The notes below the pieces were generated by a model. That model ran no database searches and was not told the origin of the DNA. It saw nothing but the letters and a program-made list of their open reading frames with translations. This document shows positions 5,550-20,551 of a stretch of DNA of 22,955 nucleotides, in pieces (positions within the stretch are counted from its first letter, which is position 1; the number at the start of each line of letters is the position of its first letter). Origin of the DNA: a virus; IMG/VR virus record IMGVR_UViG_3300021424_000251, positions 1 to 22,955 of that record. The stretch is one strand, 5' to 3'. Position numbers and translations under genes: made by a program.

Positions 5550-5557
5550 TATTTATA
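5550..5557 (+). promoter_or_regulatory. Candidate late promoter element TATTTATA
   Basis: TATTTATA preceded by A, in the 41-base gap after the chaperone stop; 19 bases separate it from the ATG at 5577. It is one of seven intergenic copies. It would drive the two small genes and the giant fibre gene. Confidence 0.6.
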
Positions 5558-5576
5558 CATAAACATAAAATAAGTA

Positions 5577-5858
5577 ATGGTAATACACAACCCCATATTT
5601 TCAGGCTCAATCACCCAAGATAGAAACAACGCATTAGCTGATTTAAGTGGTTCATTTACTGGTTCTGTTACAGGTTCATTTAAAGGTACAATTGATGTTC
5701 AACAAGCTTCATTTGCAGATTTAACTGTAACAACAAGATTAAGAGTAACTGGTTCACAAATTGTGACAGGTTCTATTAATTTAACGCAAGGTGGATATTT
5801 AGTAGATGGGGTAAATGTTTTGGATTCGGCTATAGCATTTGCAATAGCATTAGGATAA
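5577..5858 (+). CDS. Small fibre-associated beta-rich protein
   Basis: 93 residues, Ser/Thr/Gly/Val-rich: GSFTGSVTGSFKGTID, then LRVTGSQIVTGSINLTQGG and a hydrophobic end VLDSAIAFAIALG. The alternating V-T-G-S pattern is the same as in the N-terminal beta regions of the two fibres (for example ISGSIVVTG in the giant fibre), so it looks like a short stand-alone fibre or fibre-collar piece. The start ATG at 5577 fits the candidate promoter 19 bases upstream. A gap of 13 bases leads to the next small gene. No family is recognised with certainty. A virion role is inferred from context. Confidence 0.6.
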   Translation: MVIHNPIFSGSITQDRNNALADLSGSFTGSVTGSFKGTIDVQQASFADLTVTTRLRVTGSQIVTGSINLTQGGYLVDGVNVLDSAIAFAIALG

Positions 5859-5871
5859 AAAATAAAAATTA

Positions 5872-6204
5872 ATGGCAAACGCATTTAAAAATAGTATAAC
5901 AGGTTCAATTGGAACAATAGGAGCAAAAGTTTATGAGACTCCATCTAATACATCAACAACTGTAATTGGAGTTGGTGTGGCAAATGTAAATTCAAATAAT
6001 ATTTCAGTTAGTGTAATGGTTAGAGATAACTCAGCAAATAAAACGGTATTTGTTGTGAAAGATTCCTTAATTTTACCTGGAAGTTCTAATGTATTGATAG
6101 GTGGTGAGCAAAAATTAGTTTTAGAGGCTGGAGATTTTCTTTCGGTAACATCCTCATTAGCTAATTCAGCAGATGTAATTGTTTCGGTATTAGAGATAAC
6201 ATAA
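5872..6204 (+). CDS. Small conserved phage virion-type protein
   Basis: 110 residues beginning MANAFKNSITGSIGTIGAKVY, with TVIGVGVANV, VKDSLILPGSSNVLIGGEQKL and a C-terminal VTSSLANSADVIVSVLEI. The pattern (MANAFK...VG....VY..., then TTVIGL.VANT, then an I-GG-(D/E)QK-VLE-GD turn and D-V.SVLEI) resembles a small all-beta protein seen near fibre and neck genes in many marine and freshwater phages; I recall it only as virion-associated and of unproven role. No signal peptide or transmembrane segment. It lies 13 bases after the 93-residue gene and 12 bases before the giant fibre, so all three are likely one transcript. Confidence 0.65.
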   Translation: MANAFKNSITGSIGTIGAKVYETPSNTSTTVIGVGVANVNSNNISVSVMVRDNSANKTVFVVKDSLILPGSSNVLIGGEQKLVLEAGDFLSVTSSLANSADVIVSVLEIT

Positions 6205-6216
6205 AAGTTGTAATGA

Positions 6217-9200
6217 ATGGAGTATTTAGGTAAGAATCCTAATGGTTTAAATCAACTAAGCGCAAGTTTAGTTTCTTTATTTGTAAGTGGTAGTAGAATA
6301 GCTAATTTCTCATCTGAATCGGTGAGTGTAGTAGGAAATTTTACTGCTTCTGCTATACAAACACCATTAATTGGTTCGCCTACAAATTCAATTCAAATAA
6401 ATGCAAATGTAAGAGTTAGCGGCTCAATTTCCTCATCATTATTTAGTGGAGATGGTAGTGGATTAACAAATATTAATGCATCATCTATTGGAGATTTAAA
6501 TCAAATTAAATCTGGCTCTGCTATCGCAAATGTATCACCAAATAAAGGATTAATAGTAAATACAGGTGTATCAATTGATAGTTTTCTAATTGTAAGTGGT
6601 AGTGGAATCTTTAACGGAAATATTAGCGTAGCTGGAAAAATAACATCAACTGAATTACATACAACATTTATTTCATCATCAGTAATATTTGCAACAGGTT
6701 CTAATAAATTTGGTGATAATGTTAATGATAGACAAGAAATTACAGGAAGTTTAAATATAAGTGGTTCTATTGTAGTAACTGGTGAGACAATACCAACTGA
6801 TAATACAACAAATGAAGTATTAGTATTAAACACAACAACCGGTAGAATTAGTAGAAGATTTGCAGCAGCAACATCTGGAACTTCAGGAACCTCTGGAACA
6901 AGCGGCAGTTCAGGAAGTTCTGGCTCAAGCGGCTCAAGTGGTACGTCAGGAAGTGGAGGCTCATCAGGAAGTTCTGGTTCAAGCGGCTCTAGCGGAAGTA
7001 GTGGTTCGTCAGGAAGCTCTGGCTCTTCTGGCACAAGCGGAAGTGGAGGCTCATCAGGAACTTCTGGAAGTGGAGGTTCAAGCGGCACAAGCGGCAGTGG
7101 TGGAACATCAGGTAGTGGTGGAACGTCTGGCTCAGGAGGCACATCAGGAAGCGGTGGCTCTTCAGGCACCTCAGGAAGTGGAGGCTCTTCAGGAAGTTCT
7201 GGCTCATCAGGAAGTAGTGGAAGTTCAGGATCGTCTGGAACAACTGGCTCAGCGGGAACTACTGGCTCAGCAGGAACTTCAGGAAGTGGAGGCTCATCAG
7301 GTTCAACAGGTTCTGCAGGAACTAGTGGCTCGGGAGGTTTAACAGGATCATCAGGAACTTCTGGCACAAATGGCTCATCCGGAACGGGTGGTAGCGCAGG
7401 TACTGCAGGAAGTGGAGGCACATCAGGCATATCAGGCGCAGGAGGTAGCGCAGGTACATCTGGAAGTGGAGGCTCATCAGGAACAAGCGGCTCATCAGGC
7501 AGCAGTGGAAGTAGCGGAAGTAGCGGCTCATCAGGATTATCTGGAGCTGGTGGAACAGGTGGTACAGCAGGCACATCAGGTAGTGGTGGCACATCAGGAA
7601 CTTCTGGTAGTGGTGGCACGTCAGGAAGTTCTGGTAGCGGAGGCTCATCAGGAACTTCTGGAAGTGGTGGCTCATCAGGAACATCTGCAAGTGCAGGCAC
7701 AGGAGGAAGTTCAGGATCTAGTGGAACAAGCGGCTCGTCAGGAACAACTGGCTCGGCAGGTTCTTCTGGTACATCATCTACATCAGGAAGTGGAGGCTCA
7801 TCAGGAACTTCTGGAAGTGGAGGTACAAGTGGACAAAGTGGTGGAATAAAATATGATTTTAGTACAACAATAACTGATTCAGATCCTGGTAATGGAAAAG
7901 TTCAATATAATAATGCCACTATTTCTTCAGTTACATTTATATACATAGACCTTTTAGACCAAAATGGTAATAATCAATTAGCATGGTATAATACATGGGA
8001 TGATAGTACAACTTCTTCTGCAAGAGGATATGTTGTATTATCTTCAAGAGATAATGGTACAATCAATAATATATTTTTAGTTAATGGTGGTGTCACAAAC
8101 GCATCTGGATATTTTAAAATTCCTGTTTCTTATGTAAGTGGTACATTACCATCAAATAATGCACAATTAGTTATAGATTTTGTGAGAACGGGAGATGGTG
8201 GTACATCTGGTTCGGGAGGCACTTCTGGCACAACAGGAACTTCTGGTAGCGGAGGCTCATCTGGCACAACAGGAACTTCTGGAAGTGGAGGCTCATCAGG
8301 TACTGCGGGTAGTGGCGGCTCATCAGGAACTTCTGGTAGCGGAGGCACATCAGGAACTTCTGGTAGCGGAGGCTCATCAGGAAGTGGTGGCTCATCGGGC
8401 ACCGCAGGAAGTGGTGGCTCTTCAGGAACATCTGGAAGCGGCGGCACATCAGGAACAAGAGGCACATCAGGAAGTGGTGGCACATCCGGTACTGGAGGTA
8501 CATCTGGATTATTATCATTGACCGGTACAACTGATAATGGTGTAATCACCTTAAATGGGTCAGCACCAAACGGAACTGTTGAATCTAATTTGACATTTGA
8601 TGGTACTACATTGGCTGTTACTGGTAACGCTACAATTAGTGGTAATCTTACAGTAAATGGTACAACAACTACAGTCAACACAGAAACAATATTACTTGCG
8701 GATAATATAATCACATTAAATTCTAATTTTACTTCCGGCGCACCATCTGAAAATGCTGGTATAGAAGTAAGAAGGGGTTCATCATCAACCGTTTCATTCT
8801 TTTGGAATGAATCAACCGATAGATGGTATGCTGATAATACATTAGAAGTAGCTGGTAACGTTGTTCTTAGTGGTACAATTGATACTGGACAAGGAGCTAC
8901 GGAAGTTCACCTAATGAATCAAAACGTTAGAACAACTGATAGTGTAACATTCGCAAACATATCAGGTCCTTTAAGTGGTAATGCAACAACAGCAACAACG
9001 GCAACCTTTATAAATGTACAAGATACAAGAGCATTAGTAACAACACCTCAGACTCAAAATATGAATCAGGGTGTTAGATTTGATTTTAGACAAAATTCAA
9101 CAAACGGTTTAAATGATGGTGGTACTTACAATGGTGTAATGTATTTCAGAAAATATGGTAGTGGTGGTGATTGGTCTGGTGGTGGAGCAAACGAATTAGG

Positions 9201-12200
9201 ATTTACTGATAATGGTAATATGTGGTTGAGATATGGTAGTTCAACTACATGGGGAGCTTGGAGACGTATAATGGATACTACATCTTATGCGTTTGCAGCT
9301 AATATGAACCAAAATGTTCGTACAACCGATAACGTAACATTCAATCAAGTAACAGCAACCTCTACGGGAACATCAGTTAGTATAGCTGGTTCAGTAAATG
9401 TTGTAACATATAATAAACCTGGTTTACTTTTAAATTCTTCTGGAACTTCATCTGCTGGAGCAGCATTTGGTATGCAGCAAGTAACAGGTGAAGGTTGGAC
9501 AGGTATCTTTGTGGATTATGAACCATATACTGGATGGGGATTATATCATGATAATCCTTCAAATTATTTCTTAATTACATCTGAAGGTTCAACTGGAGCA
9601 ATTGGTGCCGGATTTACTGTACCATCAAGACAAAGTGGTAATAGAACAGCATATGTTAAAATGCGTTTTGACCAAAATAATGGTGATTTTACAACAGGTA
9701 GAGATGGATACGCTCAAACCTCATTCAGAGCACCAATATTCTATGATTCAAACGATACTGGGTATTATTTAGACCCAACATCTACTACAAGAATAAGATA
9801 TCTAAAAGTTAATGGAACTGGTACATCTTCTGGAACAAGATCATTAACAATATTAAATGATGGGCAAGCAGAAATTAACTTTGGCTCATATCCTGCATCT
9901 TGGACATCTGCATTACAAATTCAAAATAATAACAATACTGATTTTATCTGGATTTCACCAATAGATGATGGATATAATGCAAGATTTAGAACAGCAGGAA
10001 GTGGATTAGATTTCTATACAGATGGTGGTAATGATACTGGTACATACTCAACATTTATTGGTTCCGGTTACGTTCAAGGAATTAATTCTGTAAGAGGACC
10101 TATCTTTTATGATTCAAATGATACCGGATATTATTTAGACCCTAATTCTACAGGAATTTCACTGTTTGCTGCGGGTTCAGTAAGAGGAACATTTTATGTA
10201 GCAAGTAATTTTGCTAGTACTGGTTATACACAGTACAAAGGTTATGATAACAATAACCACTTTATAATGATTAGGGGTAGAGTTACAGGTAATACATCAT
10301 CTCCTACTTTTACTGGTTATCATAGAACTTCATTAATAGAATATGCTGAAACAAATGATGATACAGGATGGTTTTTTCAAACAGCTGCAACTGGTAACTA
10401 CGATATTGTAGCAAGATTAACACGTTCATATTCACAGTTTGAAAGTAGTGTTAGAGCACCAATCTTCTACGACTCTAATGACACGACATACTACTTAGAC
10501 CCTAATAGTAGTTCACTTTTAAGAGGTAGATTTAATATAACAGGTGGACATGGTAATTCAAGTCTCAGAGTATTCCTACAACCTGGCGAAAATGGTGCAG
10601 CAACTGGAATAACTACACTTCAAATGTGGACATCGGAACCAGGTAATACATGGGACGGAGCGGGGTTTGGATATAATGTAGACAATAATCAGAATGAGTC
10701 TGGAAATGTTCCAGCTTATTACTTCGGTAGACCAAATACTGGCTTTGGTCAGGCTTATATGAGAATGACAACTGATGGTAACTGGTATTTTTACAATACA
10801 CCAAATGGTTCTAATACAAGACATCTTACAATGCAACTTGTAAGAGATGGTTATTTATTAGCACCACAATCACTTCGCTCTCCGATATTTTATGATTCAA
10901 ATGATACCGGTAGATATGTAGACCCAAATGGATTTAGTAATTTATCGAATAGTGGTTTGGTGATGGAAGTAACCAAACTTGGAACCGGCCCTAATAGTAG
11001 AGCAGTTCAGTTTGCAAATAATCAGGGTGATAACTCTTGGGGTATTGTTGCGGAATTTAGAGTAAATGGTTCACCGGGTGGTGATAGGCCTTCAATATTA
11101 TTTTCTAATGGATTTGATAGTCAGACTTGGTCCTGTGGATATGGATATGCAGATTCAGGATATTTCAGAATTAACTATGACCACGGACATAGAAATGGTA
11201 GTTGGGGTACAACTGCATTCTATATAGATAGAGGTAGGAATTCTTACTCTAATGGTTCATCAAGAGCACCTATATTTTATGACCTTAATGATACAGGTTA
11301 TTATGGAGATTTTAATTCAACATCTCGTTTTAATGTAACAATAACCAACACTACATATTTTGGTTCGGATACAAATAAGGGATATGCACAAGGATATGGT
11401 ACATATTCATCGCTTTTCACAAAAGTGGCATACATGTCATTCGATTGGAATGCAAACTATAATTATTATTTTTATCATGGTATAGCATCAACTGATTTAA
11501 ATGGTAATTTTTCAGATTCAATGTCATTGAATTCTTTTAATGATATTATACTAAGACTTGACTCAAATGATAATAACAATAACTCCTATGTAAGATTTAT
11601 GGATAATACCGCTGGTTACAACCAATTTGCTTACATCGGTAGAGAGAGTGGTTCTCCGATTGCGTACTTTGGTGGTTCAGTTTATGGTACTATATTCTAT
11701 GACGCAAACGATAGTGGGTATTATATAGACCCTAACTCAACAAGCCAATCGGCAGGTAGAATGAGAGGTGGATTTTTACATGGGCCTAACCCAACATGGG
11801 GAGCTTATTTATTAGTTGGTGGTGATGGTAGAAACGGATATATTGATTCATCATTTGCATCAGTAGCAGCAACAAATGGTAACCTACACTTAGATGCTGG
11901 TAATGGATATCAATTATACTTAAACTACTACGATGGTAATGTAATTTATTTTGGTGGTGGTGCATATAATAACTGGGGTGAATTTAGTAGTGGTATATTC
12001 TACGCATACAATCAGATGCGTTCCCCTATAATGTATGATTACAATGATACAGGATATTATGTTGACCCTAATAGTGAATCTGTTTTAAATTATACCACTG
12101 TAAGAAGAATAACATTTCATGGTGTAGGGGGTAATTCGGGAATGGGTGGTGAAGCATATGCTATATTTCAAGAAGGTGGTAGTTGGAGTTATCCATTTCC

Positions 12201-14955
12201 TGACCTAAGAATAGCATATCATACAGGAATAAAGCTCGGAGCTAACGCTAGCTATCAGGGAATAAGATTTTACACAGACTACGATATGAGTGGTCAAGTT
12301 ATGTCTGTTAATAACGGATTTGACCCGTTAGGTGGTGGTAATGTATATGTAAACAACTCACTTCAAGCAGGTAGTTCACTTCGTGCAACTATATTTTATG
12401 ATTCTAATGATACAACATATTACCTGAACCCAAATGGTGATTCTAGATTTAGTGGCATTTATCTAAGTGGTATATCATCAACTTCAAATGGAATATATTT
12501 CTATGGTGTTGTTGGTGATAATCCTGGCTCGTATAACCATACTGCCATAGTTGAAAGAATTTGGAGAAATGGTGATGAATCAGAATTATTATTATTCAAA
12601 GGTAATGATCCTGATACATCAACTATACATGACCGTATGAGAATAGCGGCAACCGGTAGAATTGTATTCCACTCAACTGCAACATATCATGATGTAAATG
12701 GATATTTTTCTTTTTCTGGTACGGGTAATATTGAGGGTAGTGGATATTTTTATGGTTCCGAATTGCATGTACCGGGAGCAATTCAAACTCCAATTGTATA
12801 TGATAGAAACAACTCAGGATATTTTGTAGACCCTGCATCTCGTTCTCGTTTAGCATCAATAGATTATGGTAATGGTGGTTTCTATTTAGCTGGTGGTTCT
12901 TGGGGTTTTAGACATAATACTCCTTATGGATATATTGAATTTGGACCTGCAAACTCATCTCATGCTCACATTTATACTGACCGTGGTAATTTTTATTTCA
13001 ACGTAAACGAATTATATGCAAATGGTTATCATGTGATAGTACACAACCTATGGTGGGGTAACACTTACTTTGGTAGTGGTGGTGATATGTATGCAACTAT
13101 TTGGTATGATACGAATGATACCGGATACAGATTAGACCCGAATGGTTCTTCAAGACTTAACTTTGTTCATTCAAATAACCATTATATACAACCTGGTCAT
13201 ATGTTGTATTCCGATCCTGGTGGTTGGACTGGTGAATACAACAAAATCCAATGGCATAGTTCGCACCTTTATTATCAAATGATTAATAACGGATATCACA
13301 TTTTCCGTTATGGTGGTGATGGGTTGGAATCTCAATATTTTGCTAGAGATGGAAACTTTTGGAATAGATATATTGGGTGGTTATCAAACTGGGCAAACCA
13401 AAACGTAAGAACTGATGCTAACCCAACTTTTAATAACATATATTCAAACGGATGGTTTAGAAATAATAATTCTGGACAAGGTTTATATAACGAAAATAGA
13501 GGAATGCACTGGTACACCAATAACGGATATTGGAAATCAGCAGGTGGTGGATATGGATATGGTGGTGTAGTAATGTACAACAACTACGAATCTGATATAA
13601 GAGGATACTCTGGATATTGGGACGGTAGTGGTTTTGGTATGTTAAATAACTCTGGAAACTGGCAGATTCGTATTGAATACGGAAATGCTAATATGGAATT
13701 GTATCGTGTGACATGGGCAAACGATATGAGAGCATATATCTTCTATGATAGAAATGATACGGGTTATTATATGGACCCTAACGCACGTTCTCAATGGTTA
13801 GGATTAGAAGATAGAGGTAAGGGTAATATTTCATTAACAGGTAAATCGAACTGGAGAAGACCTCAAGATATCACTGGAGACAGAAACTATTGGACAGGTG
13901 CTATGGGTTGGGGTACTACGGACTTTAACTGGGTAATGGATTGGGGTAGTGGTGATATTGATACTTGGTCAAACCCCGCTAACCAACCTCCTGGTACATC
14001 TCACTGGGTGGGTGTTCAATCATATCACTATGTAAACTGGTATAACTCCGGTTATGGATGGCAATTAGTTGGTGGACCTGTTGATAGATTATGGTTTAGA
14101 AACTCTTGGCCAAATAATACCGGATGGAAAGCACAAGTTGACTCTAATAATAGAGGTGAATATTGTATTCCTACATATGATTACAACCACTATTCAAGAG
14201 TTTACTTTACTTATAATAGAGGATATTACGCAACACAAACCGATTCGGCAATGTGCCAACCATACTCAACTGGTAATAATGGTGCGTTTATGTCATTCCA
14301 CAAAGGTGGTTACTATGCATTAAACTTAGGTTTGGATGGTGATAACGTTGTAAGATGGGGAGGTTGGTCTTCCAGATGGCAAAGATATTATTTGAATGAT
14401 GATACGTTGGGTACTCCATATGTATTACGTTCTAATTTTGATAACTATACTGGTGGTGGTGTTTGGGTATCTGATGATGGTGATTTAGCAGATATAAACG
14501 ATGGATATTTATCACTTCGTGCTTCTTATGGTTTGAGAATCTTCTCTGGTAATAGAGGTGGTGGTGCAAACATCAATTTGAGATATGATGGTGTAATTAT
14601 TGCATCAAACAATATTATTGCTTATGGTTCACCTTCGGATAGAAGATTGAAAGATAATGTTAAATTCTACGAAAACGCTTTAGAGAAAGTATTAAAACTT
14701 AGAGGTGTTGAGTTTGATTGGAAAGAAGGTACTGATGAATATGAAACAACAGGTCTAAGACATGATATTGGATTTATTGCACAAGAAGTTGAAGATGTTG
14801 AACCATTGTTGGTAAGGCCAGATGATGCAGGATATTTAGCATTAAGGGATAGAGCAATGCCAGCACTATTGGTAAACGCTATTAAAGAATTAAAGGCGGA
14901 ATTGGATGAAGCTAAAGATAAAATAAAAATATTAGAACAAAAATTAGGTTTATAA
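6217..14955 (+). CDS. Giant tail fibre with Gly-X-Y shafts, IFYDSNDT repeats and C-terminal S74 chaperone
   Basis: 2,912 residues. Order: N-terminal beta region (1-218) ending in an adaptor (NEVLVLNTTTGRISRR); Gly-X-Y tract (219-543); folded domain (544-660); second Gly-X-Y tract (661-764); an exit module with DNGVITLNGSAPN (about 765-810); a fibre module with LTVNGTTTTVNTETILLADN, AGIEVRRG and FFWNESTDRWY; two NQNVRTTD motifs (bases 8917, 9307) and a third, NQNVRTDA, at 13396; eleven IFYDSNDTGYYLDP modules (1172-2520); and at 2807-2912 a Peptidase_S74 intramolecular chaperone starting SDRRLKDN. In this family the fibre cuts itself before that Ser after trimerising, releasing the chaperone; Ser2807 and nearby Lys fit. 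A coiled-coil end (LKAELDEAKDKIKILEQKL) supports trimerisation. The 12-base gap to the preceding small gene indicates one operon. The product is probably a long adhesive fibre. Confidence 0.94.
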   Translation: MEYLGKNPNGLNQLSASLVSLFVSGSRIANFSSESVSVVGNFTASAIQTPLIGSPTNSIQINANVRVSGSISSSLFSGDGSGLTNINASSIGDLNQIKSGSAIANVSPNKGLIVNTGVSIDSFLIVSGSGIFNGNISVAGKITSTELHTTFISSSVIFATGSNKFGDNVNDRQEITGSLNISGSIVVTGETIPTDNTTNEVLVLNTTTGRISRRFAAATSGTSGTSGTSGSSGSSGSSGSSGTSGSGGSSGSSGSSGSSGSSGSSGSSGSSGTSGSGGSSGTSGSGGSSGTSGSGGTSGSGGTSGSGGTSGSGGSSGTSGSGGSSGSSGSSGSSGSSGSSGTTGSAGTTGSAGTSGSGGSSGSTGSAGTSGSGGLTGSSGTSGTNGSSGTGGSAGTAGSGGTSGISGAGGSAGTSGSGGSSGTSGSSGSSGSSGSSGSSGLSGAGGTGGTAGTSGSGGTSGTSGSGGTSGSSGSGGSSGTSGSGGSSGTSASAGTGGSSGSSGTSGSSGTTGSAGSSGTSSTSGSGGSSGTSGSGGTSGQSGGIKYDFSTTITDSDPGNGKVQYNNATISSVTFIYIDLLDQNGNNQLAWYNTWDDSTTSSARGYVVLSSRDNGTINNIFLVNGGVTNASGYFKIPVSYVSGTLPSNNAQLVIDFVRTGDGGTSGSGGTSGTTGTSGSGGSSGTTGTSGSGGSSGTAGSGGSSGTSGSGGTSGTSGSGGSSGSGGSSGTAGSGGSSGTSGSGGTSGTRGTSGSGGTSGTGGTSGLLSLTGTTDNGVITLNGSAPNGTVESNLTFDGTTLAVTGNATISGNLTVNGTTTTVNTETILLADNIITLNSNFTSGAPSENAGIEVRRGSSSTVSFFWNESTDRWYADNTLEVAGNVVLSGTIDTGQGATEVHLMNQNVRTTDSVTFANISGPLSGNATTATTATFINVQDTRALVTTPQTQNMNQGVRFDFRQNSTNGLNDGGTYNGVMYFRKYGSGGDWSGGGANELGFTDNGNMWLRYGSSTTWGAWRRIMDTTSYAFAANMNQNVRTTDNVTFNQVTATSTGTSVSIAGSVNVVTYNKPGLLLNSSGTSSAGAAFGMQQVTGEGWTGIFVDYEPYTGWGLYHDNPSNYFLITSEGSTGAIGAGFTVPSRQSGNRTAYVKMRFDQNNGDFTTGRDGYAQTSFRAPIFYDSNDTGYYLDPTSTTRIRYLKVNGTGTSSGTRSLTILNDGQAEINFGSYPASWTSALQIQNNNNTDFIWISPIDDGYNARFRTAGSGLDFYTDGGNDTGTYSTFIGSGYVQGINSVRGPIFYDSNDTGYYLDPNSTGISLFAAGSVRGTFYVASNFASTGYTQYKGYDNNNHFIMIRGRVTGNTSSPTFTGYHRTSLIEYAETNDDTGWFFQTAATGNYDIVARLTRSYSQFESSVRAPIFYDSNDTTYYLDPNSSSLLRGRFNITGGHGNSSLRVFLQPGENGAATGITTLQMWTSEPGNTWDGAGFGYNVDNNQNESGNVPAYYFGRPNTGFGQAYMRMTTDGNWYFYNTPNGSNTRHLTMQLVRDGYLLAPQSLRSPIFYDSNDTGRYVDPNGFSNLSNSGLVMEVTKLGTGPNSRAVQFANNQGDNSWGIVAEFRVNGSPGGDRPSILFSNGFDSQTWSCGYGYADSGYFRINYDHGHRNGSWGTTAFYIDRGRNSYSNGSSRAPIFYDLNDTGYYGDFNSTSRFNVTITNTTYFGSDTNKGYAQGYGTYSSLFTKVAYMSFDWNANYNYYFYHGIASTDLNGNFSDSMSLNSFNDIILRLDSNDNNNNSYVRFMDNTAGYNQFAYIGRESGSPIAYFGGSVYGTIFYDANDSGYYIDPNSTSQSAGRMRGGFLHGPNPTWGAYLLVGGDGRNGYIDSSFASVAATNGNLHLDAGNGYQLYLNYYDGNVIYFGGGAYNNWGEFSSGIFYAYNQMRSPIMYDYNDTGYYVDPNSESVLNYTTVRRITFHGVGGNSGMGGEAYAIFQEGGSWSYPFPDLRIAYHTGIKLGANASYQGIRFYTDYDMSGQVMSVNNGFDPLGGGNVYVNNSLQAGSSLRATIFYDSNDTTYYLNPNGDSRFSGIYLSGISSTSNGIYFYGVVGDNPGSYNHTAIVERIWRNGDESELLLFKGNDPDTSTIHDRMRIAATGRIVFHSTATYHDVNGYFSFSGTGNIEGSGYFYGSELHVPGAIQTPIVYDRNNSGYFVDPASRSRLASIDYGNGGFYLAGGSWGFRHNTPYGYIEFGPANSSHAHIYTDRGNFYFNVNELYANGYHVIVHNLWWGNTYFGSGGDMYATIWYDTNDTGYRLDPNGSSRLNFVHSNNHYIQPGHMLYSDPGGWTGEYNKIQWHSSHLYYQMINNGYHIFRYGGDGLESQYFARDGNFWNRYIGWLSNWANQNVRTDANPTFNNIYSNGWFRNNNSGQGLYNENRGMHWYTNNGYWKSAGGGYGYGGVVMYNNYESDIRGYSGYWDGSGFGMLNNSGNWQIRIEYGNANMELYRVTWANDMRAYIFYDRNDTGYYMDPNARSQWLGLEDRGKGNISLTGKSNWRRPQDITGDRNYWTGAMGWGTTDFNWVMDWGSGDIDTWSNPANQPPGTSHWVGVQSYHYVNWYNSGYGWQLVGGPVDRLWFRNSWPNNTGWKAQVDSNNRGEYCIPTYDYNHYSRVYFTYNRGYYATQTDSAMCQPYSTGNNGAFMSFHKGGYYALNLGLDGDNVVRWGGWSSRWQRYYLNDDTLGTPYVLRSNFDNYTGGGVWVSDDGDLADINDGYLSLRASYGLRIFSGNRGGGANINLRYDGVIIASNNIIAYGSPSDRRLKDNVKFYENALEKVLKLRGVEFDWKEGTDEYETTGLRHDIGFIAQEVEDVEPLLVRPDDAGYLALRDRAMPALLVNAIKELKAELDEAKDKIKILEQKLGL
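6871..7845 (+). repeat. Gly-X-Y tract 1 of the giant fibre
   Basis: About 325 residues of GTS, GSS and GSG triplets, with a GSG/GGS-rich middle (for example GSGGTSGSGG). No proline. The coding DNA is an imperfect array of 9- and 18-base units such as GGAAGTGGAGGCTCATCA. It begins directly after SRRFAAA and ends at GQSGG before a folded domain. Confidence 0.94.
8191..8508 (+). repeat. Gly-X-Y tract 2 of the giant fibre
   Basis: About 104 residues of Gly-X-Y triplets, again Ser/Thr/Gly-rich and proline-free, with one GTRGTS. It links the inserted domain at residues 544-660 to the DNGVITLNGSAPN exit module. Confidence 0.93.
9730..13779 (+). repeat. Eleven IFYDSNDTGYYLDP fibre modules
   Basis: Modules start near bases 9730, 10096, 10456, 10879, 11266, 11686, 12022, 12385, 12787, 13093 and 13732. 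The consensus is (A/S)PIFYDSNDTGYYLDPNS..., a motif known from phage tail fibres. Variants include IMYDYNDTGYYVDP, IVYDRNNSGYFVDP and IWYDTNDTGYRLDP. Spacings are 122, 120, 141, 129, 140, 112, 121, 134, 102 and 213 residues. The segments between are unlike one another but similar in character (Gly, Asn, Tyr and Trp rich). Confidence 0.93.
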
Positions 14956-14966
14956 AAAAAACTATA

Positions 14967-14974
14967 TATTTATA
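14967..14974 (+). promoter_or_regulatory. Candidate late promoter element TATTTATA
   Basis: TATTTATA preceded by A, in the gap after the giant fibre; 20 bases separate it from the ATG at 14995. AAAGGA lies between it and the start and could act as a weak ribosome binding site. Confidence 0.6.
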
Positions 14975-14994
14975 TATATTAAAGGATAATAATT

Positions 14995-15420
14995 ATGGCA
15001 ATAAAGATAGCAGCAGAAATAGGAACATCTCAAGGTATTACTAATGAAGCTTATGTAAGGATTTACCGATATGTGGTAGATAGAAATAAAGGTGCTTTAG
15101 AATTATACGTCAACGTTTTTAAAAACGAAGAATCTGCAAGATTATTAGAAACTAATATTTCAAACCGTATGGGAGCACCAATTAATGAAAGATTTCTTGC
15201 TAAAATTGATGCAATACCACATTGGCATTCTTTATCAATGGTAAAAATTGAACAAGAAATTATTGATGGTAGAGTTTACGAAAAGAAAATTCCTGATTTT
15301 AGTGTGTTGGAAGGAGCGGATATATTTTCAAAAGCATATCCATTATTAAAACAAAAAATAGCTGCAGATTTGATTGAAAGAAAAATAATTCAATCAGCAA
15401 CAGTTTTAGAAGATGTATAA
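14995..15420 (+). CDS. Hypothetical phage protein in tail module
   Basis: 141 residues starting MAIKIAAEIGTSQGITNEAYVR. I do not recognise a family. It is soluble-looking: a first half with several beta-type stretches (ALELYVNVFKN, SLSMVKIEQEII) and a helical end (FSKAYPLLKQKIAADLIERKI). No membrane segment or signal peptide. It has its own promoter candidate and a weak AAAGGA site upstream, and is followed after 12 bases by a 95-residue gene, so the two form one short unit between the giant fibre and the sheath. The position suggests a minor tail or fibre-attachment component, but that is inference only. Confidence 0.75.
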   Translation: MAIKIAAEIGTSQGITNEAYVRIYRYVVDRNKGALELYVNVFKNEESARLLETNISNRMGAPINERFLAKIDAIPHWHSLSMVKIEQEIIDGRVYEKKIPDFSVLEGADIFSKAYPLLKQKIAADLIERKIIQSATVLEDV

Positions 15421-15432
15421 AATAAAAAGAAA

Positions 15433-15720
15433 ATGATAACAATTATTGAAGAAAAAAATATTTTTGGTAAAAAAATAAACACAATTTTTACAAATATTCT
15501 AAGATATGATTTAGCTAGTGATGATTGTGTACTACGATATGAATTAAGATATAGAGACCCTAGTAGAGAATCTGTTGCAATACCTGATTCAATTATTTCT
15601 TCTGGTGAATGGAAAGTACCAACAAACGTCTTAAATGCATGGACAGGTAGTAATTTCTATTTAGCTGAAAAAATGTGTGAGGATTTTAATTTTACAATGA
15701 TAAGACAAGAAATAGGTTAA
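15433..15720 (+). CDS. Hypothetical phage protein in tail module
   Basis: 95 residues starting MITIIEEKNIFGKKINTIF. No family recognised. It contains CVLRYELRYRDPSRESVAI and a middle WKVPTNVLNAWTGSNFYLAEKM, suggesting a small alpha/beta fold; no membrane segment. It starts 12 bases after the 141-residue gene with AAAGAAA just before the ATG, and has no promoter candidate of its own, so it should be cotranscribed with that gene. The role is unknown; a tail or fibre accessory is possible from its position. Confidence 0.7.
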   Translation: MITIIEEKNIFGKKINTIFTNILRYDLASDDCVLRYELRYRDPSRESVAIPDSIISSGEWKVPTNVLNAWTGSNFYLAEKMCEDFNFTMIRQEIG

Positions 15721-15735
15721 TTTACAAAAAACAAA

Positions 15736-15743
15736 TATTTATA
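15736..15743 (+). promoter_or_regulatory. Candidate late promoter element TATTTATA
   Basis: TATTTATA preceded by A, 15 bases after the preceding stop codon; 17 bases separate it from the ATG at 15761. Confidence 0.6.
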
Positions 15744-15760
15744 ATTAAAATAAAAATAAA

Positions 15761-16147
15761 ATGGCAATAAATTATACATGGAAAATTACATCTGTATCCA
15801 AAACAAACGATGAAGGATTAGAAAATGTAATTATAGGCACAAGATGGGAATGCGAAGGAACTGATACCGCAGATAATATTTCTGGAAAATTTATCGGAGC
15901 AACACCTTTTCAAATTGGTTCGGTAAATCCTGATACTTTTATAAACTACTCAGAATTGACTGAAGAAAAGGTATTGGGATGGATTAAGAATGTAGTTAGT
16001 GGTTCTAATACTTCTTATTGGGACCATATTACTGAAAGAATTGAAAAAGATATCAAAAGTAAAAGAAATATTGTGACTAATGTTGATAACTTCGATTTAC
16101 CTTGGGCACCTACTTCCGGTTCATATACAGGTTCAAAACCTATATAA
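15761..16147 (+). CDS. Small phage structural-type protein with LTEEKVLGWIK motif
   Basis: 128 residues starting MAINYTWKITSVSKTNDEGL. The layout (M-(A)-x-x-Y-TW-I-x-x, then a beta part with W.C.GTD, then F..Y.ELTEEKVLGWIKNV, then a D.....I..Q/K.. helix and a closing LPWAP) resembles a small protein often found next to tail-fibre genes in phages, whose function I do not know. No membrane or signal segment. It stands alone: a promoter candidate 17 bases upstream of the start and a possible hairpin terminator from 16171, before the sheath gene. Confidence 0.75.
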   Translation: MAINYTWKITSVSKTNDEGLENVIIGTRWECEGTDTADNISGKFIGATPFQIGSVNPDTFINYSELTEEKVLGWIKNVVSGSNTSYWDHITERIEKDIKSKRNIVTNVDNFDLPWAPTSGSYTGSKPI

Positions 16148-16170
16148 TTTTTAAAGAATTTATGAAACCT

Positions 16171-16209
16171 AATATCCAAAGCATTATTATTGTGTTTTGG
16201 ATATTTTGC
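16171..16209 (+). terminator. Hairpin, possible weak terminator before sheath gene
   Basis: AATATCCAAA (16171-16180) pairs perfectly with TTTGGATATT (16196-16205) across a 15-base loop. The stem is AT-rich and the following T run is broken (TTGCTT), so termination may be partial. Confidence 0.5.
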
Positions 16210-16212
16210 TTA

Positions 16213-16220
16213 TATTTATA
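16213..16220 (+). promoter_or_regulatory. Candidate late promoter element TATTTATA upstream of sheath
   Basis: TATTTATA preceded by A, right after the 16171-16205 hairpin. It is 54 bases from the sheath ATG, much farther than the other copies. A looser TATTTTTATA at 16225-16234 is 40 bases from the ATG. Confidence 0.5.
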
Positions 16221-16274
16221 TGTGTATTTTTATAGGAATACAAATTATAACAAAAATCTAATTGGAGAAATAAA

Positions 16275-18647
16275 ATGGCAGAAAGAATCGTATCACCTGG
16301 CGTATTCACAAGAGAAAATGACCTATCATTTATAGCACAAGGTATAGGAGAAATAGGAGCAGCATTTATAGGACCTTTAAAACAAGGACCTGCGTTTGTT
16401 CCAACAATTGTGAGAACACAATCAGAATTCGAAGATATCTTCGGCGTTCCTGATGGGACATATTATACTGAATATGCAGTACAAAATTATTTAAGGGAAG
16501 CTGGCTCAGCAACAATCGTAAGAGTAGCTGGAGTTGGTGGTTATAAGCAACAAAAACCTTTGGGTATATTTGCAACTGCTGCAAATTCTGGAGCTAGTGA
16601 AAAACTAATTGGTGTTTTATATAATACCAATTTGGGAGCACAAGATGTAGGATTTGATACTGTAACAGCAGCAAGTTCAAGTTTTGCAGATTCATTAGGT
16701 AGATTTATACTATTTGGTGGATTAGATGCTAACTTACTATCTGGTTCAGCTATAGCTATATCAGCATCTATAAATCCTGGCGATACAAATGATTTATCTG
16801 ATGTCTTTGGTACTTCTCCAATTGTATCACAAGCAAGCACATCTAAAAAATCATACACATACGTTTATTTCGAACATACAGCATCTTTACTATATGCATC
16901 ATCTTCAATGAATATTAAGAAATTGCCTGAACAAGATTATTCTGGTAATGAAAAATTTCCAGCTTATTCTGAAGCATTTACTCCTTGGGTTAAATCTCAA
17001 AACATAAGTGGTGAAAGATATGACCTTTTCCGTTTTGCAACTTTAGGACATGGTACAAATTATAATACTAAATTCAAAATTGGTATTTCTAACGTAAAGG
17101 CAGCTGGTGAAGATGGAGCAACTGATTACGCTACATTTACTGTAACTATTCGTAGTTATAGTGATACTGATAAGAGAAAAGGTGTAATTGAAACATATAA
17201 CAATGTAAACTTAGACCCAGCATCTCCAAACTATATAGCAAGAAGAATCGGTGATAGATATGTAACAATTGATTCAGATGGTAAGATTACTGAATATGGT
17301 GATTATGTAGCTAGGTCAAAATATATTAGAGTTGAAGTAAAAGAGGCAGGAGCATTTGCTGTATCAGCAGCACCATTTGGACATGCAGCTTATTACAATC
17401 CAATTAAAGTTGCAACAGCAGATGAATCAAAAGTTCCTCCTGTTGTATTCCAAACTGGTTCATTAGGAAATACAGCATCATCTCCTGTATATTTTTCAGG
17501 ATTTGATTTTGAAACAACTGGTGTATCAACCGATAACAAACAATATTTAAGACCATTACCACAAGGTGTGGCTAATGGAAGCAACTCAGTATTTGCGTTT
17601 GATAATACATCTTTAGGATTATCATTTGAAATGACTGGTTCAACTTCATCTGATATGTCTAGGAGACAATTTATCTTAGCATTCCAAGGTGGATATGATG
17701 GTATGAATCCAACTGTAAAACCTGCAAAAGCTGGTGATGCAGAGTGGGGAGCAGCAAATACGCAAGGATTCAATTGTTCTAACGCAGCATCTTCAGGTTC
17801 CCTTTCTTACTTTAGAGCAATTAACGCTGTTTCAAATCCTGATGAATATGATATCAATATGGTAGTAACTCCTGGTATCGTAAGAAGTCTTCACCCATCA
17901 GTAACTACAAAAGCTATTGATATGGTTGAAGATAGACAAGATGCATTCTATATCGCTGATTTCAACGATTATGATAATACAATTACTGAGGCTACTGAAG
18001 CAGCAAATGCAGTTGATTCCAACTATGTAGCTACTTATTATCCTTGGGTTAAAACAATTGATACAAATACAAATAAACTTACAACTGTACCACCATCAGT
18101 ATTGATGCCAGCTGTATTCGCTCAGAATGATAGATTGGCAGCAGAATGGTTCGCACCTGCTGGTTTGAATAGAGGTGGTATTGTAGGAGCAGTAACTGTA
18201 TTGAATAGATTAACACACTCTGAGAGAGATACTTTATATGAGAACAAAGTAAACCCAATTGCAGCATTCCCTGGACAAGGTATTGTAGCATTTGGACAGA
18301 AAACATTACAAGATAAGGCTTCAGCATTAGATAGAATCAACGTAAGAAGATTACTTATAACTGTTAAGAAGTTTATCGCATCTACTTCTCGTTTCTTGGT
18401 ATTTGAACAAAATACTTCAACAACTAGAGGAAGATTTTTGAATACTGTAAATCCTTATTTAGAAGCAATTCAACAAAGACAAGGTTTATACGCATTCAGA
18501 GTTGTAATGGATGAAAGTAATAATACTCCTGATGTGATTGATAGAAACATATTAGCTGGACAAATTTTCTTACAACCTGCGAAGACAGCGGAATTCATCG
18601 TAATTGATTTCAACATTCTTCCAACCGGAGCAAGTTTTTCAGCATAA
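16275..18647 (+). CDS. gp18: Contractile tail sheath protein (T4 gp18-like)
   Basis: 790 residues, longer than T4 gp18 (659). The N-terminus, MAERIVSPGVFTRENDLS followed by GAAFIGPLKQGPAF.P..V and F...FG....TYYTEYAVQNYL, is the standard sheath opening: the strand that links subunits, then the first conserved domain. The C-terminal domain has the sheath signature, with a VNPYLEAIQQRQGLYAFRV-type stretch, NNTPDVIDRN, and an IFLQPAKTAEFIVIDFNI strand. The middle carries variable domains, which probably hold the extra length. Sheath subunits surround the tube and contract to drive it into the host. GGAG lies about 8 bases before the ATG. The tail tube gene follows after 51 bases with its own promoter candidate, the usual sheath-tube order. 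Confidence 0.96.
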   Translation: MAERIVSPGVFTRENDLSFIAQGIGEIGAAFIGPLKQGPAFVPTIVRTQSEFEDIFGVPDGTYYTEYAVQNYLREAGSATIVRVAGVGGYKQQKPLGIFATAANSGASEKLIGVLYNTNLGAQDVGFDTVTAASSSFADSLGRFILFGGLDANLLSGSAIAISASINPGDTNDLSDVFGTSPIVSQASTSKKSYTYVYFEHTASLLYASSSMNIKKLPEQDYSGNEKFPAYSEAFTPWVKSQNISGERYDLFRFATLGHGTNYNTKFKIGISNVKAAGEDGATDYATFTVTIRSYSDTDKRKGVIETYNNVNLDPASPNYIARRIGDRYVTIDSDGKITEYGDYVARSKYIRVEVKEAGAFAVSAAPFGHAAYYNPIKVATADESKVPPVVFQTGSLGNTASSPVYFSGFDFETTGVSTDNKQYLRPLPQGVANGSNSVFAFDNTSLGLSFEMTGSTSSDMSRRQFILAFQGGYDGMNPTVKPAKAGDAEWGAANTQGFNCSNAASSGSLSYFRAINAVSNPDEYDINMVVTPGIVRSLHPSVTTKAIDMVEDRQDAFYIADFNDYDNTITEATEAANAVDSNYVATYYPWVKTIDTNTNKLTTVPPSVLMPAVFAQNDRLAAEWFAPAGLNRGGIVGAVTVLNRLTHSERDTLYENKVNPIAAFPGQGIVAFGQKTLQDKASALDRINVRRLLITVKKFIASTSRFLVFEQNTSTTRGRFLNTVNPYLEAIQQRQGLYAFRVVMDESNNTPDVIDRNILAGQIFLQPAKTAEFIVIDFNILPTGASFSA

Positions 18648-18668
18648 TATAAAAACGTAACGAAGAAA

Positions 18669-18676
18669 TATTTATT
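18669..18676 (+). promoter_or_regulatory. Candidate late promoter element (TATTTATT variant)
   Basis: TATTTATT preceded by A, one mismatch to the other copies; 22 bases separate it from the tube ATG. AAAGGA lies between. Confidence 0.5.
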
Positions 18677-18698
18677 AATAAAATAAAGGAATAATAAA

Positions 18699-19196
18699 AT
18701 GGCAGAAATACTAGAGTTTGATAAGATGTTCTATACGAACTTCGAACCTAAGATGAAAAATAGATATGTGATGGAGTTCGGCGAAGTCGGATTACCTGCG
18801 TATCTTGTAAAAGCAGCTAATAGACCTACTATTCAATTTGAAGTAGTAACTTTAGACCATATCAACGTAAAAAGAAAGTTGAAGGGTAAAGGTGAGTGGC
18901 AAGATATCACTGTCACCCTATATGACCCAATTGTTCCTTCAGCAGCTCAAGGTGTAATGGAATGGGTGAGATTATCTCATGAATCTATTACAGGTAGAGA
19001 TGGATACGCTGAGTTTTACAAAAAAGATATTGATTTCTATATGTTAGGTCCTGTTGGTGATAAAATTGAACAGTGGAAAATTAAAGGAGCATTTATCAGT
19101 CAAGCAAACTTTGGTGATTTAGCATTTGATTCTGCTAACGAACCTGCAACAATTGAATTAACATTATCTTACGATTACGCAATCCTTGAATTCTAA
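18699..19196 (+). CDS. gp19: Tail tube protein (T4 gp19-like)
   Basis: 165 residues, close to T4 gp19 (163). Features seen: an N-terminal helix part (MAEILEFDKMFYTNFEPKMKN), RYVMEFGEVGLPAYLVKAANRP, the conserved HINVKRKLKGKGEWQDITVTLYDP region, the G..EW.RLSHES.TGR.GY loop, and an ISQANFGDLAF...E..TIELTLSYDYAILEF end. This is the Hcp-like beta-barrel tube fold of the phage tail tube family. The protein would form the inner tube in stacked hexamers around the tape measure, inside the sheath. AAAGGA about 11 bases upstream may aid initiation. A strong terminator follows at 19221, so the gene looks monocistronic apart from any readthrough from the sheath. Confidence 0.95.
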   Translation: MAEILEFDKMFYTNFEPKMKNRYVMEFGEVGLPAYLVKAANRPTIQFEVVTLDHINVKRKLKGKGEWQDITVTLYDPIVPSAAQGVMEWVRLSHESITGRDGYAEFYKKDIDFYMLGPVGDKIEQWKIKGAFISQANFGDLAFDSANEPATIELTLSYDYAILEF

Positions 19197-19220
19197 TCTA
19201 AGAAAAAAACTATAAAAACT

Positions 19221-19250
19221 AAGGGATACTTAAAACGTATCCCTTTTTTA
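19221..19250 (+). terminator. Rho-independent terminator after tail tube gene
   Basis: AAGGGATAC (19221-19229) pairs with GTATCCCTT (19237-19245) across a 7-base loop and is followed directly by a T run. It lies 25 bases after the tube stop and before the next promoter candidate. Confidence 0.88.
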
Positions 19251-19273
19251 TTTTCAACTTTTTTAAATTAATG

Positions 19274-19281
19274 TATTTATA
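19274..19281 (+). promoter_or_regulatory. Candidate late promoter element TATTTATA
   Basis: TATTTATA preceded by G, 24 bases after the terminator; 20 bases separate it from the ATG at 19302. No Shine-Dalgarno-like sequence is seen between. Confidence 0.6.
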
Positions 19282-19301
19282 TATACAAAACAAATTACGT
19301 T

Positions 19302-20054
19302 ATGCAAGAAAAACAATATGATTTTCCAACGGAAGTATTAGACCTTCCATCAAAAGGGTTGGTGTACCCAAAAGACCACCCATTATCATCGGGTAGAATT
19401 ACAATTAAACATATGACAGCAAAGGAAGAAGATATTCTTTCTAATCAAAACCTTATTAAAAAAGGTGTTGTTTTGGATAAATTATTTGAATCAATTGTTG
19501 TTGATGATGTTAATGTAAGTGATATTATTATTGGTGATAAAAATGCAATTGTATTAGCAACAAGATTATTGGGATATGGGCCTGAATACAAAATGAAGTT
19601 TTATTCAACTATCACCAACGATAGTAAAGAGATAACAATTGATTTATCTAAAATACAAACAAAAGAAGTAGATTTTTCAGTTTTTAAGCATAAAAATGAG
19701 TTTGAATATACTCTACCATCGAGTGGTAAAAAAATTACTTTTAAATTACTTACGCATTTTGATGAAATAGCGATTGAAAAAGATATTGATGCATTGAAAA
19801 AATTAAGTAAAGATGTATCAGCAGATATTACAACTAGATTACGTTATATGATTAAATCGGTTGATGGTGATAATAGTGTAAGTGCCGTAAGTAAGTTAAT
19901 AAATGGTATGTTAGCTAGAGATAGTAGAGCATTTAGAGAATATGTAAAGAGTATTTCTCCTGATATGGATATGAAATATGAATATGAACATGAAACTGGT
20001 GAAAAGGAGGTCATCAATATTACATTAGGTGTTGGGTTTTTTTGGCCTAGCTAA
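19302..20054 (+). CDS. gp26: Baseplate/tail assembly protein, T4 gp26-like
   Basis: 250 residues. The start, then DFPTEVLDLPSKGLVYP, SSGRITIKHMTAKEEDIL and a KGVVLDKLFESI helix match the T4 gp26-type baseplate protein family (T4_baseplate), as do TRLRYMIKSVDG, the acidic-rich SRAFREYVKSISPDMDM and the closing GVGFFWPS. T4 gp26 (208 residues) is a baseplate hub assembly factor; in many related phages this protein is placed just ahead of the tape measure, as here, and may act as a tail assembly chaperone. The last 26 bases overlap the next frame at a T7 run, suggesting a frameshifted longer product. A promoter candidate ends 20 bases before the ATG. Family assignment is fairly firm, exact role less so. 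Confidence 0.82.
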   Translation: MQEKQYDFPTEVLDLPSKGLVYPKDHPLSSGRITIKHMTAKEEDILSNQNLIKKGVVLDKLFESIVVDDVNVSDIIIGDKNAIVLATRLLGYGPEYKMKFYSTITNDSKEITIDLSKIQTKEVDFSVFKHKNEFEYTLPSSGKKITFKLLTHFDEIAIEKDIDALKKLSKDVSADITTRLRYMIKSVDGDNSVSAVSKLINGMLARDSRAFREYVKSISPDMDMKYEYEHETGEKEVINITLGVGFFWPS

Positions 20055-20253
20055 AGAACATAGTGTATTAGTACATTCTCAAATATTTGATATGATAAAT
20101 TATGGGAATGGGTTCACATTTTCAGATGTTTATCATATGCCAACTTATTTAAGAAATTTTTATTATAATAAGTTAGTAGATGCTAAAAAGAAAGAATCCG
20201 AACAAATTAAAAAATCAAACTCTCAAAAATCATCTAAAGTTAGGATAAGGTAA
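20029..20253 (+). CDS. gp51-like overlapping frame, or frameshift extension of the gp26-like protein
   Basis: Up to 74 residues from a GTG at 20029: GFFGLAKEHSVLVHSQIF, then GNGFTFSDVYHMPTYLRNFYY and a Lys-rich tail. The (V)HSQIF...GFTFSDVY.MP..LR.FY pattern resembles the short protein that follows gp26 in T4-like phages (gp51 position) and the frameshift extensions of tail-assembly chaperones. Only GTG 20029 or TTG 20032 could start it, because TAG at 20026 closes the frame just upstream. AGGAGG at 20005-20010 is a good Shine-Dalgarno but sits 18 bases from the GTG, too far for ordinary use. A +1 slip at GGG TTT TTT TGG would instead join it in frame to the gp26-like protein with no residues lost. 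Its stop lies inside a terminator hairpin. Confidence 0.65.
   Translation: MLGFFGLAKEHSVLVHSQIFDMINYGNGFTFSDVYHMPTYLRNFYYNKLVDAKKKESEQIKKSNSQKSSKVRIR
20034..20045 (+). other. Candidate +1 frameshift site in T7 run
   Basis: The upstream frame reads GGG TTT TTT TGG; the downstream frame reads TTT TTT GGC after moving one base forward. A Phe tRNA on TTT (20040-20042) can re-pair perfectly with TTT at 20041-20043. A -1 slip would hit TAG at 20048. Confidence 0.45.
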
Positions 20254-20278
20254 CTCCAAATCCTAACTTTTTGTTTTA
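20236..20278 (+). terminator. Rho-independent terminator overlapping the gp51-like stop
   Basis: AAAGTTAGGAT (20236-20246) pairs perfectly over 11 bp with ATCCTAACTTT (20260-20270), with a 13-base loop and then TTGTTTTA. The left arm and the TAA at 20251-20253 belong to the gp51-like frame. Confidence 0.85.
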
Positions 20279-20283
20279 TTGGA

Positions 20284-20291
20284 TATTTATA
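20284..20291 (+). promoter_or_regulatory. Candidate late promoter element TATTTATA
   Basis: TATTTATA preceded by A, just after the terminator; 20 bases separate it from the ATG at 20312. It would drive the 79-residue gene and the tape measure. Confidence 0.6.
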
Positions 20292-20311: not shown

Positions 20312-20551
20312 ATGAAAAAATATAAAATATCTAAAAAAAATTTAAAAGAATTTTTTGGATTTTTCACTAAAAAGAAAACTCCGCAAGAAATTCAAAAATT
20401 AATAGATAATGATCCTGTATTGCAGAGACTTCAAAAAGATATGAGGGCAATTAATGATAAAAGTAAGGATTATTTTGATAAATTAAAAACAACAAATCCA
20501 AAATTATATAAATGGGCTAAAGACTCTGGTATGATAAATCCAAATAATTAA
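20312..20551 (+). CDS. Small Lys-rich hypothetical protein before tape measure
   Basis: 79 residues starting MKKYKISKKNLKEFFGFF. It is strongly helical and basic at the N-terminus, followed by KKTPQEIQKLIDNDPVLQRL, then KDMRAINDKSKDYFDKL and a P..Y.W.KDSGMI end. The pattern I..LI..DP.L..L...M..IN....D.......P.......SG(M/L)I looks like a short phage protein near tape-measure genes, but I cannot name it. The ATG at 20312 fits the promoter 20 bases upstream. The tape-measure gene follows after 3 bases, so translation is probably coupled. It may help load or chaperone the tape measure; that is a guess from position. Confidence 0.72.
   Translation: MKKYKISKKNLKEFFGFFTKKKTPQEIQKLIDNDPVLQRLQKDMRAINDKSKDYFDKLKTTNPKLYKWAKDSGMINPNN

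Follow-up and report, generated by a model that had tools for sequence, protein, structure and literature searches.

What is the role of the octamer TATTTATA, which recurs ahead of the genes of a T4-like tail module, and which protein reads it? The module, with genes for sheath, tube, baseplate hub and tail-fibre assembly, lies on 22,955 bases that form a fragment of an IMG/VR record and are here called the window. We consider it likely that TATTTATA is the single-box late promoter of a T4-like phage, a variant of the T4 late box that would be read by a divergent gp55-type sigma factor. The promoter role, the late timing (from the class of the genes concerned) and the reading by a gp55-like protein are all inferred from sequence.

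All boxes in the gaps of the window are on the plus strand and intergenic, six of them being TATTTATA and one the variant TATTTATT, exactly where an earlier note on this DNA had placed them. The first TATTTATA (5550-5557) stands 19 bases before the ATG of a unit (5577-14955) of three genes for proteins of 93, 110 and 2912 residues. The second (14967-14974) precedes genes at 14995 (141 aa) and 15433 (95 aa) by 20 bases and the third (15736-15743) a gene at 15761 (128 aa, DUF7936) by 17 bases. The candidate late promoter box of the 790-residue tail sheath gene (16275-18647) is found at 16213-16220, directly 3' of a terminator-like stem-loop (16171-16205, plus strand, z -3.7) and 54 bases from the ATG. 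TATTTATT (18669-18676) lies 22 bases before the tail tube gene (18699-19196). The interval between this gene and the next box holds a strong terminator (19221-19245, plus strand, z -3.75), and the box itself (19274-19281) is 20 bases away from the baseplate hub gene (19302-20054). The last TATTTATA (20284-20291) follows a terminator-like stem-loop (about 20236-20270, plus strand, z -2.8) that overlaps the end of an open frame at 20029-20253, and it stands 20 bases before a gene at 20312 (79 aa), behind which a gene at 20555 encodes a 771-residue protein that is tape-measure-like by position. Seven candidate promoter boxes are thus spaced 19, 20, 17, 54, 22, 20 and 20 bases from the start codon, in agreement with the 17-22 bases claimed for six of the seven and with the sheath gene as the exception. 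The base 5' of the box is A in six of the seven copies and G at 19274, again as described. Stem-loops with T-rich stretches occur directly upstream of three copies, and the count of two terminators in the earlier note has to be corrected accordingly. Every plus-strand gap of at least 39 bases (7/7) holds a box and the eight junctions of at most 15 bases all lack one, so the closely spaced internal genes indeed lack it.

Two further properties of the window concern its very long genes. A 2912-residue open frame (6217-14955) lies within the tail module. G+C content is about 0.46-0.53 in parts of two such genes (1-4175 and 7000-9000) and about 0.30 elsewhere, and a long antisense open frame (314-3796) is located in the G+C-rich part; the rise in G+C and the antisense frame suggest acquired or repetitive fibre-like sequence.

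As a mere count over the whole window TATTTATA is only mildly unusual (7 copies versus 3.2 expected, with at least 7 in 6 of 100 shuffles). Six of these copies fall into the 514 gap bases, where 0.26 are expected, and not one of 20,000 dinucleotide shuffles reached this number. Once any octamer is allowed, the probability of such gap placement is P = 0.0005. Chance is excluded as the reason for the placement of the box in the window gaps. The single exact TATTTATA in coding sequence of the window lies on the minus strand (4540), and TATTTATT occurs there twice on the plus strand (10852 and 11806). The observation that coding sequence is free of exact copies therefore holds for plus-strand TATTTATA and fails for the one copy on the minus strand.

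A megablast search of the window against phages gave no match. Judged by the sheath protein, the nearest isolates are Microcystis phage Mel-JY01 (49% identity) and Flavobacterium phage immuto (42%), with Rhodothermus phage RM378 (28%) more distant. Closer relatives were collected as a clade of 80 contigs whose sheath shares at least 72% identity with that of the window. In these contigs TATTTATA is the most gap-enriched of all octamers (about 138-fold): it was counted in 130 distinct gap contexts, and about 1.04 Mb of coding sequence yielded 58 copies. The T4 late box TATAAATA shows no such enrichment there (6 gap versus 57 coding copies), nor is the reverse complement of TATTTATA enriched in the clade gaps. 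Ahead of the sheath gene, 39 of 40 distinct gaps of relatives carry the exact box, always with a spacing of 54-61 bases to the ATG; ahead of the hub gene 44 of 45 do so, and ahead of the tube gene all 30 have a box that deviates from TATTTATA by at most one mismatch (six exact). The box is retained in relatives while the surrounding gap sequence changes. The clade consensus is [A/G]TATTTATA, base frequencies reveal A+T-rich sequence directly 3' of it, and the 199 clade contexts contain no positioned upstream information. The enrichment before genes, proposed earlier as a test by scanning, is thus found genome-wide in the relatives, where the octamer accumulates in gaps and is not scattered across coding sequence.

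In immuto (NC_055915.1, 160 kb, complete) TATTTATA again ranks first among all octamers, with 27 gap versus 4 coding copies. Eighteen of the 26 sites situated at most 150 bases from a gene belong to the structural half, to which only 35% of the noncoding sequence falls (P = 0.0006), and eight lie outside it. The excess is weaker in Mel-JY01 (15 gap versus 16 coding) and pronounced in a 137-kb contig, G028, with 14 versus 4 copies of TATTTATA and 0 versus 9 of TATAAATA. When T4 was run through the same script as a positive control, TATAAATA came out on top in a late stretch of 50 kb (10 gap and 5 coding copies) and occurred once in an early stretch of equal length. Cyanophage gp55 neighbourhoods were useless as a promoter control, as these regions are not late. 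RM378 (NC_004735.1) carries a sister motif, TATTTAA(A)(g)AAAA, which stands ahead of many genes on either strand at a distance to the ATG of mostly 6-17 bases, and this motif probably represents a late promoter with nearly leaderless transcripts. The replacement of TATAAATA by TATTTATA is not clean everywhere: in some marine and more divergent gp55-like contigs (L123-L185 and L287-L354) both words are enriched in gaps, TATAAATA with 54/32 and 44/54 gap/coding copies, which perhaps reflects two promoter classes or bidirectional sites. In these contigs TATAAATA is usually farther from the ATG than TATTTATA. Shine-Dalgarno-like leaders precede 63% of the genes in G028, 37% in Mel-JY01 and 3% in immuto. 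Phages with the common late box seem to infect hosts that differ in their translation-start habits.

The most serious competitor of a phage-specific late promoter is an ordinary element for the primary sigma factor of the host, such that the unmodified host holoenzyme would read the late genes. The primary promoter of Bacteroidetes consists of TTG at -33 and TAnnTTTG at -7 (PMC9723704). The TATTTATA box shares its TAnnTTT-like letters, and TATATTTA, which is common in the clade, resembles TAnnTTTG minus the final G. It is just this G that is missing, the base being A by definition in the counted sites, and the enriched word is TATTTATA and not TATTTG. Moreover, no -33/-35 signal is present upstream of the late boxes, neither in the 199 clade contexts nor at the 26 immuto sites, at which TTG occurs in at most three cases at any one upstream position. 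The late boxes thus do not combine TTG at -33 with TAnnTTTG. Immuto does possess such promoters. A second class, agTTGC-N-TATATTTAGGTA(tcaataattaaaac), precedes many small genes of the early region, mainly at 60-76 kb; TTG is found at one position in 16 of its 17 members, nearly all of which lie in the early region, and it looks like a strong host-type promoter. With TTG in the early class and none at the late boxes of one and the same phage, the late box is not merely a host promoter, and this positioned-TTG test led to the rejection of a host primary promoter for the late boxes. In addition, the box is shared by phages that have Shine-Dalgarno leaders and phages that lack them, whose leaders point to different host types, and it therefore follows the phage lineage and not one type of host. 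Reading by the host holoenzyme is accordingly unlikely. A scan of the window for E. coli-type sigma-70 promoters was uninformative (71 matches versus 88 in shuffles).

A function in RNA, as a translation enhancer or an AU-rich ribosome landing site, would agree with the position of most clade copies 15-30 bases 5' of the ATG. Such a function is hard to reconcile with the long spacing that the sheath copy holds across relatives, with a spacing that shifts from phage to phage (10-25 bases in immuto, 27-40 in Mel-JY01, 6-17 for the sister motif of RM378) and with the lack of the box ahead of closely spaced downstream genes. Furthermore, three copies directly follow terminators, where a new transcript must begin, and we regard a role in translation as quite improbable. 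The same three copies argue against an endonuclease processing site in long late transcripts, as do the retention of the box at unit starts only, its form close to the T4 late box and its association with the same gene classes. Processing would yield similar 5' ends in primer extension, a caveat expressly raised in a review on T4 (PMC2988020), but we rate it as even less probable than a role in translation. Least of all does a functionless excess caused by base composition merit belief. The gaps are indeed 84% A+T, and yet their dinucleotide shuffles yield far fewer copies, the gaps show no enrichment of the reverse complement, and the word persists in relatives while its flanks change. Shuffles, reverse-complement control and conservation together refute chance in A+T-rich gaps.

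If TATTTATA is a late promoter of the T4 type, a gp55-like protein should read it. The 23-kb window fragment does not contain a gp55-like gene, and the link is made via relatives. The gp55 family profile (phrog_234) retrieves immuto gp118 weakly, with E 0.008 in a genome search and E 0.5 in hmmscan, and 4 of 55 members of the gp118 family match this profile at E<0.1. Profile-profile comparison (hhalign) of the gp118 family with gp55 resulted in P 0.00015 and a probability of 42-52% for an alignment that is collinear over about 100 residues and includes the core FD..(N/K)xx(A/S)Y. The sigma region-2 core of the family aligns in order with gp55, and the C-terminal part of gp118 is longer than, and different from, that of gp55. 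Single-sequence prediction of the gp118 fold was poor (pLDDT 54) and was replaced by an alignment-based AlphaFold model (pLDDT 84). The top folds retrieved with this model from the PDB and a viral library are mostly sigma factors. The model superimposes on the T4-type sigma factor of Klebsiella phage KPV15 with prob 1.00, rmsd 3.8 and TM 0.65 by target; against solved structures all E values exceed 0.07 and none is significant. Taken together, sequence and fold comparison moderately back the assignment of immuto gp118 as a divergent gp55-like protein.

Hundreds of gp118 relatives exist in environmental sequence, and a search of 50,697 phage records found the family only in immuto, Mel-JY01 and the uncultured huge phage LR756508; the phages that hold the gp118 family are the same phages that are nearest to the window by sheath. 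A profile of the gp118 family also detects RM378 p020 (L098:17032-17826, E 7e-8), which is annotated as hypothetical. The annotated sigma factor of RM378, gp144, was considered as the gp118 relative and dismissed, as it lacks significant similarity and p020 is the relative. RM378 gp144 is an ECF-like sigma factor unrelated to p020. Contig G028 carries a gp118-family gene together with a sheath that has 53% identity to that of the window. Contigs of the window clade, up to 82 kb in length, contain no gp55-like gene, as would be expected if the gene were about 60-80 kb away from the sheath gene, as it is in immuto, Mel-JY01 and G028. A divergent gp55-like protein, which the earlier note had recommended looking for, is thus present in related genomes long enough to hold one. 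A gp118-type reader has three moderate lines of support, none of which is decisive.

In T4, gp55 acts together with gp33 and gp45. A profile search for a gp45-type clamp found that of T4 and none in immuto, Mel-JY01, RM378 and G028, with the reservation that a very diverged clamp would escape, and the T4 route of activation may therefore not apply. Mel-JY01 encodes a 250-residue protein between its PolB and clamp-loader genes, in the place of a sliding clamp (L094:25755-26504). This frame was tried as gp45 and gave no match to a clamp family. A phage-coded RNA polymerase was also considered as reader and dropped, as there was no T7-type match; this test is weak because the control genomes are likewise without a match. 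The DFDGD motif was absent apart from one match in a small frame of Mel-JY01.

A wider generalization, which we put forward tentatively and hold to be possible but rather doubtful, is that a large T4-like branch with Flavobacterium, Rhodothermus, a cyanobacterium (the host of Mel-JY01 as recorded) and others as hosts uses an unlabelled branch of late sigma factors, whose -10 specificity has shifted from TATAAATA to TATTTATA or TATTTAA, and that its late transcription does without a recognisable gp45-type clamp. The T4-family late promoters that we found described all keep an AAATA core, and the present box would be a natural two-base change at its very centre. With a candidate reader and a cultured pair, immuto on Flavobacterium sp. 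LMO8, the altered box is testable. With the box as a guide, late genes could be assigned in hundreds of environmental T4-like contigs that lack annotation, a protein family at present called hypothetical would gain a label, and a direct comparison of how gp55-type sigma factors read the -10 box would follow. The question is also raised whether these phages couple late transcription to replication in the way T4 does. A literature search retrieved no paper with TATTTATA as a phage promoter and no late promoters for Bacteroidota phages.

As to the mechanism, we propose that TATTTATA would act as the lone -10-type box of late promoters without a -35 partner. Transcription would start about 5-7 bases 3' of it. 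In most units the predicted leader is then about 10-17 nt long, and that of the sheath gene about 50 nt. The probable reader of the box is a gp55-type sigma factor of the immuto gp118 family, encoded by the phage, highly divergent and bound to the core of the host RNA polymerase. The late-promoter reading, already offered in the earlier note, gains support from the enrichment before genes, the lack of a -33/-35 signal and the gp55-like protein in relatives. The note had also stated that the coding strand carries the T4 box in reverse complement. This is formally true, although an inverted reading is unneeded: TATWWATA is palindromic, the reverse complement is the same as TATAAATA with its central AA changed to TT, and no inverted polymerase is required.

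In the T4 late promoter a box of 8 bases lies one helical turn upstream of the start, a -35 element is absent and an A+T-rich stretch follows the box (PMC2988020). The system described here has in common with it the single 8-base TATA-type box without -35 element, the A+T-rich downstream sequence, a short leader (here predicted), the location upstream of sheath, tube, hub and other virion genes and a gp55-like protein in relatives. It differs in the central AA to TT exchange, by which TATTTATA departs from the TATAAATA consensus, in a highly diverged putative reader with an extra C-terminal part and in the negative outcome of the search for a gp45-type clamp. In silico variants of the T4 box have been reported before, namely NATAAATA for cyanophage S-PM2 (PMC2984593), likewise the box of Syn9, and CTAAATA for Aeromonas phage Aeh1, which likewise has a diverged gp55 (PMC1524935). 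In these variants positions -13/-12 are altered and the AAATA core is kept, whereas here the core itself is altered; the pairing of a changed box with a diverged gp55 in Aeh1 is the same pattern as here. The TATTTAA motif of RM378 ends in AA and not in TA and mostly stands much nearer to the ATG, but it shares the TATTTA core, it likewise precedes genes, there on both strands, and its phage has a gp55-like protein as well.
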